In this document: in pieces, positions 24,485 to 63,692 of the stretch
How positions within the stretch are numbered: position 1 is the stretch's first letter
Layout: every line of letters starts with the position of its first letter
Assembly (NCBI GenBank): GCA_022865885.1
Contig: JALHSQ010000226.1
Span: 62,001-126,000, forward strand
Source of the DNA: Candidatus Bathyarchaeota archaeon
Lineage (GTDB): Archaea > Thermoproteota > Bathyarchaeia > Bathyarchaeales > Bathycorpusculaceae
Length of the DNA: 64,000 nucleotides
Reading direction: 5' to 3'
Notes under the pieces: generated by a model
Databases searched by the model: none
Told to the model about the DNA's origin: nothing
The model's input: the letters and a program-made list of their open reading frames with translations, nothing else
Position numbers and translations under genes: made by a program

Positions 24485-24582
24485 AGCGGGGTGGGGTAGC
24501 CAGGATTAACCCGCTGGGCTCATAAGAGCTATATGCGCTCCGGGAGACCCAGAGATCGGTTGTTCAAATCAACCCCCCGCTA
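24485..24582 (+). tRNA. Initiator tRNA-Met (CAU) with a 22-nt intron
   Basis: Exons fold as a full cloverleaf. Acceptor AGCGGGG/CCCCGCT (A1-U72, an initiator mark), D-stem GGGT/ACCC, anticodon stem CTGGG/CCCAG with the three G-C pairs typical of initiators, anticodon CAT at 24521-24523, T-arm GGTTG-TTCAAAT-CAACC, discriminator A at 24582. The 3' CCA is not encoded. An intron at the canonical 37/38 position (24525-24546) interrupts the anticodon loop. AT-rich elements at 24423-24430 and 24446-24453 are candidate TATA boxes. Confidence 0.95.
24525..24546 (+). other. BHB intron in initiator tRNA-Met
   Basis: 22 nt between positions 37 and 38. The fold is: exon helix CTGGG/CCCAG; central 4-nt segment CTCA/CGGG (three pairs, one A-C mismatch); 3-nt bulges TAA and AGA; intron helix GAGC/GCTC with a 7-nt loop. 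Cutting after the second base of each bulge frees the intron and restores the 7-nt anticodon loop. The geometry and cutting rule are the same as in the pcm intron at 2200-2231. Confidence 0.88.
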
Positions 24583-57564: not shown

Positions 57565-57661
57565 CTGTTATCACCTCTATTCCTAGCACTATTAGAAGTA
57601 AAGTATTTATGCTATCAAGTTTATAGTGAGATAGTTGCTATGTGGAAGGAAAGTGACGGGC

Positions 57662-58072
57662 ATGCAGAACAAGAATGACGTAGTTTGTTTTTGTCCGCTT
57701 GAAGGAATAATAGACGTGATAAGCAAGAAATGGGCCCTTCTGATCATCAATGCAATAGGGAACTACGGCAGCCTCAGATTCAACAAACTCATGGAAGAAC
57801 TGCACGGCATAAGCCCCAAGACACTTGCAGACACGCTAAAACAGCTTCAAAAGGAAGAGCTACTTAAGAGAGAATCATTTGCCGAAATCCCGCCTCGTGT
57901 CGAATACTCATTGACAAAAGATGGAGAAGGGCTCAGAGAAGCCGTGATCCCGATCCTAAAATGGGCTGCCACTAGGCAATGCTCAAAAAAGAAATGTTCA
58001 GCAACCTACAACAAAATCCCCGCACACAGAATACGAGACAGAGCCGCTCCAGAAAAGGACCACAGTGATTGA
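57662..58072 (+). CDS. HxlR family transcription regulator
   Basis: 136 residues. The HxlR winged helix begins CFCPLEGIIDVISKKWALLIINAIGNYGSLRFNKLMEELHGISPKTLADTLKQLQKEELLKRESF, with the usual N-terminal Cys residues and KDGEGLREAVIPILKWA at the end. A Lys/Cys-rich tail (CSKKKCSATYNK) is extra. HxlR members often sense redox or electrophiles through cysteines. ATG 57662 is chosen; the frame extends to 57635. The 97-base divergent region toward the DUF5320-like gene contains CTAT/ATAG repeats around a TATA-like TTTATAGT that could be its operator. Confidence 0.87.
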   Translation: MQNKNDVVCFCPLEGIIDVISKKWALLIINAIGNYGSLRFNKLMEELHGISPKTLADTLKQLQKEELLKRESFAEIPPRVEYSLTKDGEGLREAVIPILKWAATRQCSKKKCSATYNKIPAHRIRDRAAPEKDHSD

Positions 58073-59492: not shown

Positions 59493-60242
59493 ATGAACAT
59501 GTCTCAATATTCGCCGGTGTCCTCATACTCGGATTTTGAGAGAAGAACTCAGCAATACCATAGCAATCTTAACCCCGGGGATACGCTGGCTTACGGGTGG
59601 ATCTACAAAAATATCCATATCACAAAACGCTTCGATTTATCGAAACTCGAAGGAATGATGCTGGTCGTGGAAGGCTACTTGGCCAACTGGGGAGGAATGA
59701 GACGATGGCTGCTTTGGAATACAGAAGAAGGATCCGCCTCATCTAAAGATATTGCTCACAACCTTCTGGATGTCCTAGAGAACAACAGGCAAAAGCTGAA
59801 GCGGCTTAATGAATTGGTTCTCTTCAAAGACCTGCAGAATGCCGAGAATGACTTGAAAGAGGTTTTTGACAGTATATCCAGAACAGAGATTAAACACAAG
59901 GGCAAGTCGTACAAACTCGGTGTTGTCGGAGCTGGAAAACTGATGCATATGCTTTTGCCGAAGCTGTGCATAATATGGGACAATAAATACGTTCTCGATA
60001 AGAAATTCAATAGTCAACGTTTTCCGAAAACCAGTGACGGATATTGCATGTATCTTGAAAGGAAAAGAGAAGAACTCAACAATGTGATAAGAAGCGCACC
60101 ATCTGGCTTTGGGCAAAGAGCAAGTCCAAACCAAATAATCAACAAAATCGAGGAGCAACATTCGAGGTTTCTTTCAAACAAAGGGTTCAAAGATATTGAA
60201 GAACCCATCACGAAGCTCTTGGACGAGTGCAATGCTGAATAG
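59493..60242 (+). CDS. Unknown protein of the tRNA-Gly island
   Basis: 249 residues, soluble, alpha-rich. Notable stretches: GWIYKNIHITKRFDLSKLEGMMLVVEGYLANWGGMRRWLLW, LKEVFDSISRTEIKHKGKSYKLG, and GAGKLMHMLLPKLCIIWDNKYVLDKKFN. The last stretch resembles a substrate- or nucleic-acid-binding helical core but matches no family I can name. ATG 59493, or 59499: a TATA-like TTTTAATA at 59468-59475 predicts a leaderless mRNA starting at about 59498. It is followed 98 bases later by a PD-(D/E)XK-like gene on the same strand; the two may form a module. Confidence 0.65.
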   Translation: MNMSQYSPVSSYSDFERRTQQYHSNLNPGDTLAYGWIYKNIHITKRFDLSKLEGMMLVVEGYLANWGGMRRWLLWNTEEGSASSKDIAHNLLDVLENNRQKLKRLNELVLFKDLQNAENDLKEVFDSISRTEIKHKGKSYKLGVVGAGKLMHMLLPKLCIIWDNKYVLDKKFNSQRFPKTSDGYCMYLERKREELNNVIRSAPSGFGQRASPNQIINKIEEQHSRFLSNKGFKDIEEPITKLLDECNAE

Positions 60243-60340
60243 CACGAACTCCTACGATTTTCAAAATTCCAACTCGTCTCTTGAGGTTAGAAACCAACGT
60301 GCGAAAGTGTTAACATCTGTCTCAGTTTCCTTTGTTGAAT

Positions 60341-61093
60341 ATGCATGGCTATAACGACAAAGAATTCGTCCTATCAAAGAAAGGTGTCAGAGTCTACCTG
60401 AAACCGGAGTTACACCCGGCATTGAAAGGTATCGATATTTCGCACCAAGACTTCAGAAGGAAGTCGAGAGAGGTCTTCGGCAAGAGGCATCCAGATGTGT
60501 GCGGCCTTCCGAAGGTTTGCTCTGAAAACAGTGAGGATGCTCTCACTTGGGCGCGTTTCAGTCCTATACTATCGATGCCTACAAAAGAGAAGGAGCGTGT
60601 GCTGCAGAGTTTTCTTGAAACTGCGTTGAAGCGTCAACTTGATGCAGATTTGGTTGGGACTCTCGGTAGGGCGGAGTTACTGTTTTGGAGAGGAAAGAAA
60701 GAAAAACCTTTCTACAGTCCTCCCCAGACTCTAAAGTACAAGGAAGCGAACACGGAAGTGGATCTAACCATTATGCTCGAGAAATCTGTCATCTTTGTGG
60801 AAGCGAAGTATCATTCAGAAATTTCGATGAATACGACTTACTGCAAGGACAGAGACCAAGTTATTAGGAACATCGATGTTGGAACCTATTATGCTTGGAA
60901 CAGACGCTTAGAATTCTATTTCTTGCTTCTTACAACTTCCGAGACCGGAAAGTCTGTTGACAAATTGAACTATTACCGGAAGAATCCGGGAATCATTGGG
61001 AAAAAGCTTCCGCATAGAACTGATATTTCCGCAAACTCGGGCAGGATCGCGGAGGGTTTGGGCTGGACAACGTGGGACAAATCAAGGCGTTAG
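60341..61093 (+). CDS. PD-(D/E)XK nuclease-like protein
   Basis: 250 residues from ATG 60341 (in-frame TTGs lie just upstream). The nuclease core is NTEVDLTIMLEKSVIFVEAKYHSE: Asp near 141 and Glu-x-Lys near 154-156, with beta-strand spacing typical of PD-(D/E)XK enzymes. A following block (DRDQVIRNIDVGTYYAWNRRLEFYFLLLTTS) fits the later strand and helix of restriction-endonuclease folds. Such proteins can be restriction enzymes, repair nucleases or defence effectors. No methyltransferase or helicase partner lies in the window. Together with the upstream unknown protein it forms a two-gene island next to a tRNA, which suggests defence; this is inference. Confidence 0.72.
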   Translation: MHGYNDKEFVLSKKGVRVYLKPELHPALKGIDISHQDFRRKSREVFGKRHPDVCGLPKVCSENSEDALTWARFSPILSMPTKEKERVLQSFLETALKRQLDADLVGTLGRAELLFWRGKKEKPFYSPPQTLKYKEANTEVDLTIMLEKSVIFVEAKYHSEISMNTTYCKDRDQVIRNIDVGTYYAWNRRLEFYFLLLTTSETGKSVDKLNYYRKNPGIIGKKLPHRTDISANSGRIAEGLGWTTWDKSRR

Positions 61094-61296: not shown

Positions 61297-62181
61297 ATGT
61301 TTATGTCTGCAACGATTAAGAGACTGCTCATCTCGGATCGTGATGACATAATGGAGATATCTCGGCACATTTGGGATGGACATGACTATCTTCCATCGGT
61401 GGCTGACGAGTGGTTGAATGATCCAAACTGCCACTTCTACGGCTCCGAAATGAACGGTCACGTTGTGGCTGTAGGCAACCTGCGACTCGTAGAAAACGGC
61501 CAAACTGGCTGGATGGAAGGACTAAGAGTTCACCCTGACTACAGGGGCAAAGGACTTGCAAAAGAGCTTACACGCTACTTGGTTGAAAAAGCTGAATCCT
61601 TCGGTCTTCAACGGCTTCGCTACACGACCGCTAACAGAAATTCTGCCTCTCTAAAGCTTGCCAAAATGGCTGGGTTTTCAAGAGTCTTCACATTGGCCGT
61701 CTTCTGGCACCTTAACCCCAAAACTGTACCCCACAGTGAAGACTATCCTTCAATAAGAAAGGTAAGTCCAGCCAGAACGCACAATCTACTGCAAACGAAT
61801 CCTAGCATCGTTTTTCACGAAATCTTGGTCTATGATTGGAAGGCTCTAGACAACACTCTTCAGAACCTTGAAGAAATCGGCAAGACCCACAAGTTCTACA
61901 TTGCCACGAAAAAAGGGAAAGCCGACTCATTATCATTTGGTTATCCCAGACGTGAATCCACTCAAGCATGGTGGAGTACAACAGTGTACGCTACCGACTT
62001 AGAAGGACTAGCGTCTCAACTGGCTCACAACCAGGTAGTAGCATCCAAGCAAGGCATCAAGTCGATTGTCTGCACGTTCGAAACCAAGTTCGAGAAGGCT
62101 CTGCGAGCCAGCGTAGGCTGGGAAACTGGGGAACACTGGGGGATTCGCTTGGTTTTGCTTGAGAAACGTATGCGTTCGTAG
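61297..62181 (+). CDS. GNAT family N-acetyltransferase with a C-terminal extension
   Basis: 294 residues, about twice a single GNAT domain. The N-terminal half is a normal GNAT: MEGLRVHPDYRGKGLAKELTRYLVEKAESFGLQRLRYTTANRNSASLKLAKMAGF, with the acetyl-CoA loop R-G-K-G-L-A near 86-91. The C-terminal 140 residues (YDWKALDNTLQNLEEIGKTHKFYIATKKGK, WWSTTVYATDLEGLASQL) may be a second, degenerate GNAT-like domain. ATG 61297 or 61303. Substrate unknown. It lies just upstream of an MFS exporter but with a regulated-looking gap between. Confidence 0.82.
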   Translation: MFMSATIKRLLISDRDDIMEISRHIWDGHDYLPSVADEWLNDPNCHFYGSEMNGHVVAVGNLRLVENGQTGWMEGLRVHPDYRGKGLAKELTRYLVEKAESFGLQRLRYTTANRNSASLKLAKMAGFSRVFTLAVFWHLNPKTVPHSEDYPSIRKVSPARTHNLLQTNPSIVFHEILVYDWKALDNTLQNLEEIGKTHKFYIATKKGKADSLSFGYPRRESTQAWWSTTVYATDLEGLASQLAHNQVVASKQGIKSIVCTFETKFEKALRASVGWETGEHWGIRLVLLEKRMRS

Positions 62182-62230: not shown

Positions 62231-62264
62231 TTAATATAGCATGGTTAGTCACGAAATGTGACTA
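62231..62264 (+). promoter_or_regulatory. TATA box with overlapping palindromic operator for the MFS gene
   Basis: TTAATATA at 62231-62238 is a good TATA box, predicting transcription start near 62261. The perfect inverted repeat TAGTCAC (62246-62252) / GTGACTA (62258-62264), with a 5-base spacer, covers the stretch from about -15 to +3. A dimeric repressor bound there would block initiation. The start codon is 190 bases downstream, leaving a long leader. Confidence 0.6.
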
Positions 62265-62310
62265 CAACATGTGCGTCGCCTTTTATGCTAACCAAATCGT
62301 TTCCTTTTGC

Positions 62311-62426
62311 GGGGACTGGAAATGACTTCCCTAGCCAATGAAGAGTCATAGGGCCACGTTTAGATTGAAGTGGCCAGCGAACTGGTCACTTCTTCCCCGA
62401 ACATTGAAATTGAGTGTCCAGTCCTC
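62311..62426 (+). promoter_or_regulatory. Structured mRNA leader, candidate RNA switch
   Basis: Within the leader of the MFS gene three helices can form a junction. P1 pairs 62311-62320 with 62417-62426 (10 bp, one G-U). P2 pairs 62322-62328 with 62343-62349 (7 bp, one G-U). P3 is an 11-bp hairpin, 62367-62377 with 62382-62392, closed by a CGAA loop. A competing helix, GGCCAC (62352-62357) with GTGGCC (62370-62375), would break P3. This matches no riboswitch class I know. The ribosome-binding site GAAGGAG lies 15 bases after P1. Confidence 0.5.
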
Positions 62427-62450
62427 TAATCACAAGAGAAGGAGAAAACT

Positions 62451-63692
62451 ATGCCGTTCCTCGGAACCCTCAAGCAGGAATTCTCGTTCATTAAAGGTAA
62501 CTATGCAGTTTTGATAGCAAGCTGGATAATGATAGATTTCGCCAGCGAACTGCCCGCCACCTACTACGGGCTTTACGTGCTTAAGCTTGGCGCCACTACA
62601 ACCATTCTAGGTATCATAGGTCTCTCCCAATTCCTAGCGTTGGCTTCGATGCAGTTTCCGGGTGGCTACTTGGCGGATAAGTATGGAAGAAAGTGGCTTA
62701 TCTCAACAATGACCTTCGGCGTCGCCCTGAGCTTCATACTTTACGCAGTTGCACCTTCATGGCCCTTCATACTCGTCGGAGCAGTCCTAATGGCCACGTT
62801 TAACTCGACTTATCAGCCAGCTTTGAACGCAATGATTTCGGACTCGTTGCCCGCCAAGAGAAGAGGAATGGGATTCAGCATAGTCATGCTCATAGCAAGC
62901 GCCTCCACAACACCAAGCCCAGCCGTCGCTGGTGTACTACGCGCTTACTTCGGCCTGGTCGATGGCATGAGAATAGGTTACGGCATCGTCGTAGCTCTCT
63001 TCTTGGCTGCGGCATTTCTCAGACTATTTCTCTTGAAAGAAACAGTCGTGAACGCTTCTAGACCACGCTTGCACGAGATAATCCAAAGCTACCCGACAGC
63101 GCTGAAAGAAAGCTTCGCCGTATGGAAAAAAGTGCCCAAATCCATGCTTTACCTGTTCCTATCATTCTCCATAGCCACGTTTGGATTCTCGTCCACGAAT
63201 CTCTTCGTAGTTATCTACGCCACGAGAGTACTCCTTATAGACGAGATACTGTGGGCCTTCATCATCGCAATAATACCCATAACCACAATAATCTTTGCCA
63301 TACCAGTCGGCAAGTCAGTGGATAAATTCAGAAGAAAGATACCTCTTCTTGTCTCAATGCTGATATTCGGGCTGGCAATATGGATCTTCATATATGGAGA
63401 CTTGACGAAAATCATAGTTTCTCTGATCCTCTTGGGCGCAGGTTCGGTAATGATGAACGCGTCTTTTGGAGCACTTCAAGCAGATTTGACGCCGAAAGAG
63501 CAACGTGGAAAAGTAAGCGGCTTTACCAACTTCGCCAACTACATAATCATGGCTTTGGGTAGCGCACTGGGCGGATTTCTGTATGAGCATGTGTCTCCTC
63601 AGGCTCCATTCATGATGGCTATCGTAGCAGTATTGCCTTCGTTTCTGCTGACACTGGTGCTGGTAAAAGAACCGAAAGAAAAAGAAGAATAG
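62451..63692 (+). CDS. MFS family exporter
   Basis: 413 residues with about 12 hydrophobic segments. The MFS signature between helices 2 and 3 is GGYLADKYGRKWLIS near 70, and the matching one in the second half is PVGKSVDKFRRKIPLLVSML. It is typical of multidrug or metabolite exporters; the substrate is unknown. ATG 62451 with GAAGGAG about 7 bases upstream. A palindrome at the promoter and a long folded leader point to tight regulation, perhaps by the exported compound. Confidence 0.88.
   Translation: MPFLGTLKQEFSFIKGNYAVLIASWIMIDFASELPATYYGLYVLKLGATTTILGIIGLSQFLALASMQFPGGYLADKYGRKWLISTMTFGVALSFILYAVAPSWPFILVGAVLMATFNSTYQPALNAMISDSLPAKRRGMGFSIVMLIASASTTPSPAVAGVLRAYFGLVDGMRIGYGIVVALFLAAAFLRLFLLKETVVNASRPRLHEIIQSYPTALKESFAVWKKVPKSMLYLFLSFSIATFGFSSTNLFVVIYATRVLLIDEILWAFIIAIIPITTIIFAIPVGKSVDKFRRKIPLLVSMLIFGLAIWIFIYGDLTKIIVSLILLGAGSVMMNASFGALQADLTPKEQRGKVSGFTNFANYIIMALGSALGGFLYEHVSPQAPFMMAIVAVLPSFLLTLVLVKEPKEKEE

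Follow-up and report, generated by a model that had tools for sequence, protein, structure and literature searches.

The 270 bp that separate a GNAT gene (61297-62181) from a gene encoding an MFS transporter, in a 64,000-nucleotide stretch of a Bathyarchaeota genome bin (G000:C189:62001-126000, referred to here as the window), raise the question of whether the transporter is controlled through the RNA of its leader or through the DNA that precedes it. The region was originally predicted to contain a ligand-sensing or attenuating RNA, in a folded leader of 190 nt downstream from a TATA box and a palindromic operator, which would work together with a repressor. The comparison of related genomes points to a different answer. 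Two conserved elements, E1 and E2, lie within 62246-62429 (Table 1), and it is almost certain that they function as DNA cis-elements. Taken as a whole, the explanation considered quite probable is that they would form a tandem promoter before the MFS gene, which both would control, with each element being the cis-site of a separate Bathyarchaeota regulon. The Bathyarchaeota are abundant in sediments, and what this locus appears to reveal is not a new riboswitch, but two networks of gene control that have apparently not been described. It provides two defined cis-elements, one candidate regulator for each, and a list of targets, all of which can be tested in vitro.

The protein encoded by the MFS gene has weak matches to the drug-efflux subfamilies, below the cutoff. 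Further upstream, two adjoining genes encoding proteins of approximately 250 aa (59493-60242 and 60332-61093) have no match in either Pfam or NCBIfam at E 0.001. Elsewhere in the window, a tRNA-Tyr (anticodon ATA) called by ARAGORN at 24485-24582 is not supported by the Rfam tRNA model, and is probably false.

Table 1. Features of the intergenic region and the transporter gene, in the coordinates of the window.
Feature	Position	Strand	Evidence or remark
TTAATATA, TATA box of the original prediction	62231-62238	+	No counterpart upstream in G024, G034 or G004; probably not the main promoter
E1 operator TAGTCAC-GAAAT-GTGACTA(C), family form AGTcACaanttGTgACTAC	62246-62265	+	Conservation in relatives
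E1 promoter core ATGTGCGTCGCCTTTTATG, TATA box at 62280-62287	62269-62287	+	55 of 163 genomes; column counts
P1 5' arm GGGGACTGGA	62311-62320	+	One G-U in the helix; not conserved
E2 promoter/operator module	62370-62429	+	80 distinct sites collected; conserved also outside the search pattern
E2 box 1 GTGGCCA	62370-62376	+	With box 2, forms the core of P3
E2 box 2 TGGTCAC	62383-62389	+	With box 1, forms the core of P3
E2 BRE/TATA-like stretch CCCCGAACATTGAAAT	about 62395-62410	+	Within the E2 module
E2 box 3 TGTCCA	62415-62420	+	Within the E2 module
P1 3' arm TCCAGTCCTC	62417-62426	+	Not conserved; overlaps E2 box 3
GAAGGAG, likely Shine-Dalgarno sequence of the MFS gene	62438-62444	+	Sequence; inferred
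MFS transporter gene	62451-63692	+	413 aa; MFS_1, E 3e-49

The upstream regions of MFS orthologues that are 64-84% identical have two blocks in common, and little else. In the closest orthologue (G024:C148), the identity is 23/24 over the E1 core, 36/76 between the blocks, and 16/19 over the block that extends from E2 box 2 to the GAA. The distance between the two blocks is short in G024:C5, while an orthologue of 79% identity (L059 of G156) has E1 only, located 82 nt before the start codon, and no such leader. Boxes 2 and 3 of E2 are found in G071 (L061), where E1 is absent from the stretch inspected, and neither element was seen in G083 (L060).

The upstream element, E1 (62246-62287), is made up of an operator palindrome, followed by a promoter core with a conserved TATA box. 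The sequence initially taken for the TATA box, TTAATATA, is present, but it is unconserved in the relatives and is unlikely to act as the main promoter. The sequence CCTTTTAwA, located 15 bp downstream from the palindrome, is conserved in these relatives and is the expected archaeal TATA box of E1. A leader of 190 nt is thus unlikely, given that TTAATATA is unconserved while CCTTTTAwA is kept, and the predicted starts would produce a leader of approximately 140 nt from E1, or approximately 20 nt from E2. The perfect 7-5-7 palindrome that had been placed over the transcription start is indeed found at 62246-62264 (TAGTCACGAAATGTGACTA), but, as the conserved TATA box lies downstream from it, the start predicted from the usual archaeal TATA-to-start distance would be near 62309 (about 62308), rather than over the palindrome.

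The 7-5-7 shape alone is weak evidence, because the window contains four exact palindromes of this type, and it is conservation that counts. Genome-wide, the palindrome by itself is not enriched (58 matches with up to three mismatches, versus 75 for the reversed pattern), and only the combination of the operator and the core is informative. In its family form, E1 consists of AGTcACaanttGTgACTAC, exactly 3 or 16 bases, and then ATGTGCGTCGCCTTTTA(A/T)(A/G), with the core also being written as ATGTGCGTCGCCTTTTAwa. The operator accompanies 35 of the 62 distinct matches to the core, in 11 cases at 3 bp and in 24 at 16 bp, with none at any other distance, and CTTTTAwA is constant, as expected of an archaeal operator-promoter. 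Six of the 61 relatives contain this composite, for which the reversed pattern gave no matches, while the core alone was recovered, with up to two mismatches, from 55 of the 163 genomes of the order. The palindrome does, then, belong to a conserved operator-promoter that many genomes carry in front of unrelated genes, and on this point the original prediction was sound. Across the order, E1 sits before genes of the bactofilin-like (polymer-forming) type, from which it is often separated by a small gene, as well as before other genes, and in the window's own genome, for example, copies of the operator are located ahead of bactofilin-like genes at C72:102294 and C232:15143. A coding origin of the E1 core (MCVAF...) was rejected, with the frame stopping within six codons in G034, G004, and G024:C5. 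The two distances between the operator and the core differ by 13 bp, which may mean that there are two modes of regulation.

The predicted regulator of E1 is a winged-helix protein with an HTH_45 domain, although this assignment is tentative, and is given slightly less than an even chance of being correct. A gene of this type adjoins E1 in most of the loci examined, with seven of the eight neighbourhoods encoding such a protein, and the E1-linked protein matches HTH_45 at E 3e-13, with 50.1 bits against a curated cut-off of 25.5. Its nearest solved relatives are the Sso10a structures. In one report, the Sso10a of Sulfolobus is described as bending and organising DNA, with architectural roles being reported for proteins that were once believed to be sequence-specific factors (PMC4941522). 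The E1-linked protein resembles Sso10a in its HTH_45 domain and structural matches, but differs in being encoded beside E1 and the bactofilin-like genes, and in being part of a longer protein in some genomes. In three loci (L282:6836-8209, L283:6004-7359, and L286:5755-6759), HTH_45 forms the N-terminus of proteins of 335-457 aa, the remainder of which is KaiC/RadA-type ATPase-like by eye. The product of an HxlR-type winged-helix regulator gene (57635-58072, E 2e-22), approximately 4 kb upstream from the MFS gene, was considered as the regulator of E1 because HxlR-type regulators bind GTnAC-type dyads, but no linkage was seen.

The downstream element, E2, has the form GTGACCA-N6-TGrnCACTTTTnCCCaGAAtnnnTAACTA-n4-TGnCCA, and is located directly before the start codon. 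A search with up to three mismatches over 32 positions recovered approximately 90 sites in 55 of the 163 genomes of the order, versus two matches to the reversed pattern. Outside the order, E2 is nearly absent, being found only in G184 and G220 in a sample of 398 genomes of the phylum, apart from chance-like single matches. The positions that were not queried are nevertheless near-invariant over the 80 distinct sites (A38 in 79, A39 in 78, C50 in 80, and A51 in 78), and this conservation beyond the search pattern is an internal validation of the element. These 80 sites precede the genes of a protein of approximately 130 aa in 40 cases, MFS_3-type exporters in 10, the present MFS group in nine, and ABC ATPases in seven, with the remaining targets including TldD/PmbA, M55 D-aminopeptidase, beta-lactamase-fold, GNAT, and methyltransferase proteins. 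In broader classes, the genes downstream from E2 thus encode exporters, peptidases, acetyltransferases, and a conserved ~130-aa protein, and the recurrence of one module in front of several different genes, more often than by chance, is what would be expected of an archaeal promoter with an operator. The first start codons are often some 60-90 nt past box 1, which is compatible with a promoter that would have a short leader, although the TATA of E2 in the window (CATTGAAAT) is weak.

The likely regulator of E2, by predicted binding, is A1, a protein of 148 aa. Its gene is located immediately upstream from E2 in nine of the 12 loci that were fetched with their flanks, and directly upstream, by coordinates, in more than 40 genomes, with the A1 stop codon often overlapping E2 box 1. 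In the genome of the window, A1 is found at C80:74161-74595, beside a second E2 site. The protein has no Pfam family above the cut-off (weak scores were obtained for HTH_24, MarR, and TrmB), and while its N-terminal half has a weak coiled-coil score, the C-terminal half (profile positions ~79-142) matches winged-helix regulators (PDB 7fby and 9w4v, E ~2e-4). These scores, all weak, are against the HTH of the Lrp/AsnC-type and other archaeal winged-helix regulators, but A1 carries its HTH at the C-terminal end, behind a probable coiled coil, and lacks an effector domain, unlike the Lrp/AsnC family, which has an N-terminal HTH and a C-terminal RAM/effector domain.

The presence of A1 was recorded in 52 of the 55 genomes with E2 and in 19 of the 108 without it (Fisher p 9e-23), or, by genus, in 36/37 versus 8/32 (p 9e-11), a co-occurrence of the kind expected of a regulon, but one that is partly trivial, given that one copy of E2 travels with the A1 gene and the genomes are related. 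The copies of E2 at unlinked exporters are nearly confined to A1-bearing genomes. In the genus g12 (approximately 30 genomes), E2 was found in none and A1 in one, while close A1 genes are present in both G184 and G220, the two E2-bearing genomes from outside the order. Three genomes (G136, G151, and G152) have E2-like sites with no A1 detected.

The linkage of A1 with E2 bears on an alternative that is unlikely, but has some substance, in which E1 and E2 are DNA elements read by some other factor, such as a dedicated TFB or an activator that acts globally, and A1 merely belongs to the regulon. The A1 gene lies upstream from its copy of E2, so it is not driven by that copy, and the protein is distant from any characterised regulator, while genes that encode HTH proteins are common, and contact between a protein and its site is not visible from the sequence. 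However, A1 tracks E2 both across the genera and outside the order, and has a DNA-binding-like domain. A far less probable reading, and the least probable of those considered here, regards E2 as a small reading frame upstream of the MFS gene, or as a coding remnant, with the peptide or its translation controlling that gene. The frame that runs through E2 is open in G034, G004, and the window, with peptides that align gap-free, and a frame of 72 codons spans the distance between the E1 core and the MFS start in G024:C148. The boxes are near-invariant, however, while the N6 and the flanks are near-random, and the reading frame was set aside on the lack of codon periodicity and the frequent overlap of E2 with the A1 stop codon.

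A functional riboswitch or attenuator, in which P1 would close a multi-helix RNA, the GGCCAC/GTGGCC pairing would be in competition with P3, and the expression of the transporter would respond to a ligand, is very improbable, even though part of its structure is real. The hairpin P3 (GAAGTGGCCAG-CGAA-CTGGTCACTTC, 62367-62392, 11 bp with one G-U) is unusually long, with a hairpin of at least 11 bp arising in just 3 of 300 dinucleotide shuffles, and it would be included in a transcript started at E1. The alternative pairing also exists in the letters. The P1 helix is present, but its length, which had been considered greater than expected, is within chance (a long-range helix of at least 10 bp in 49/300 dinucleotide shuffles, or 16%). 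The proposed leader of 189 nt folds with a modest z of -1.75 to -1.86 in relation to the shuffles, and reaches -2.8 when it begins at about 62308, and -2.8 to -3.1 from 62300 or 62308 to 62450. Scrambling the P3 26-mer alone, in the leader from 62308, raises the mean z to -0.83, and P3 alone therefore carries the excess stability. In the orthologous leaders, z ranges from -2.95 to +1.4. Only four of the ten P1 pairs survive in the G024 orthologue, which is 82% identical, and in two others the arms are unalignable, while the orthologues retain at most four of the six P2 pairs, and 5-9 of the 11 P3 pairs. The leader itself is missing in some orthologues, and a search of Rfam found no family match to it, even at E up to 1. 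The orthologous leaders thus display neither conservation nor covariation of the structure, which is the very outcome that the original prediction had named as contrary to it.

The E2 sites point in the same direction. In 60 non-redundant sites, P3 pairs without covariation, and the central pair 4-17 forms in 27 sites and the pair 5-16 in 22, which is not above the shuffled values, although these sites were gathered by a sequence pattern, the positions of which were not free to vary, with 16-17 being largely free. The full 7-bp stem forms in 11 of the 60 sites, and the pairing of boxes 2 and 3 has no convincing covariation in this set. Viewed as DNA, P3 is a near-perfect palindrome. Box 2 is found in either orientation, as TGACCA in 21 sites and TGGTCA in 15, and the P3 arms are often direct repeats (TGACCA/TGACCA), which are unable to pair at the centre. 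This freedom of orientation suits a protein that reads double-stranded DNA, but would ruin an RNA stem. The case also illustrates how a palindrome with a regulatory role in DNA can be mistaken for an RNA hairpin if a single genome is read alone. The locus resembles the transporter riboswitches and attenuators in that it lies between a promoter and the gene of a transporter, and in its stable hairpin, but differs in having no conserved or covarying RNA structure and no Rfam match, and in that the E2 sequence recurs as a promoter module. No relevant paper that pairs a riboswitch with the Bathyarchaeota was found. What is retained from the initial interpretation is a repressor-type control of the exporter, which is plausible, but the RNA partner of this repressor is unsupported.

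Given this, the tandem promoter is the preferred explanation. In the archaeal operator-promoters controlled by winged-helix regulators, the sites overlap or flank the BRE/TATA and the start. Both E1 and E2 are similar to these systems, with a dyad or repeated boxes at a fixed distance from a TATA-like stretch, before many genes, including exporters. They differ in that no description was found to match the sequences of E1 and E2, the fixed spacings of these elements, or A1, and in the three TGnnCA boxes of E2, two of which are upstream and one downstream of the TATA region. Winged-helix-bound operators around archaeal promoters are thus a known kind, but E1, E2, their regulons, and A1 appear to be undescribed. 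No literature was found on the regulons or promoter motifs of the Bathyarchaeota, an absence that proves little.

In the scheme that can be deduced from these sequences, E1 (the operator palindrome, GTGCGTCGCC, and the TATA) would start the transcript near 62309, and E2 (the boxes TGrCCA, TGrnCA, and TGnCCA, around the BRE/TATA-like stretch) would start a short-leader transcript, predicted to begin near 62430. A dimer or higher oligomer of A1 would probably occupy the E2 boxes that lie to either side of the TATA region, and block TBP/TFB or the polymerase in the assembly of the pre-initiation complex, until a xenobiotic, a toxic compound, or a peptide-like signal releases A1 and the exporter is turned on. 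The HTH_45 (Sso10a-like) protein may bind E1, and the exporter would most likely be driven by two promoters under two regulators. That boxes flank the TATA-like stretch in E2 is suggestive of repression through a block on the assembly of the pre-initiation complex, and repression is somewhat favoured over activation at this element, with activation through the upstream boxes being possible.

It is slightly more probable than the contrary that E2 and A1 together constitute an undescribed regulon that is lineage-wide in the Bathyarchaeota, with a Pfam-less winged-helix regulator and sites that bracket the TATA. This regulon, which plausibly responds to toxic peptides or xenobiotics, would comprise exporters, TldD/PmbA and D-aminopeptidase-type peptidases, acetyltransferases, and the ~130-aa protein. 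This last protein, the commonest E2 target (L267:7499-7864 and its homologues), has no Pfam match, and is characterised by EVPALIKGIIASVFSEEAGRDMGKAAAAFYKEL... and an FSEEAG motif, with a small gene of approximately 80 aa often found just before its own gene.
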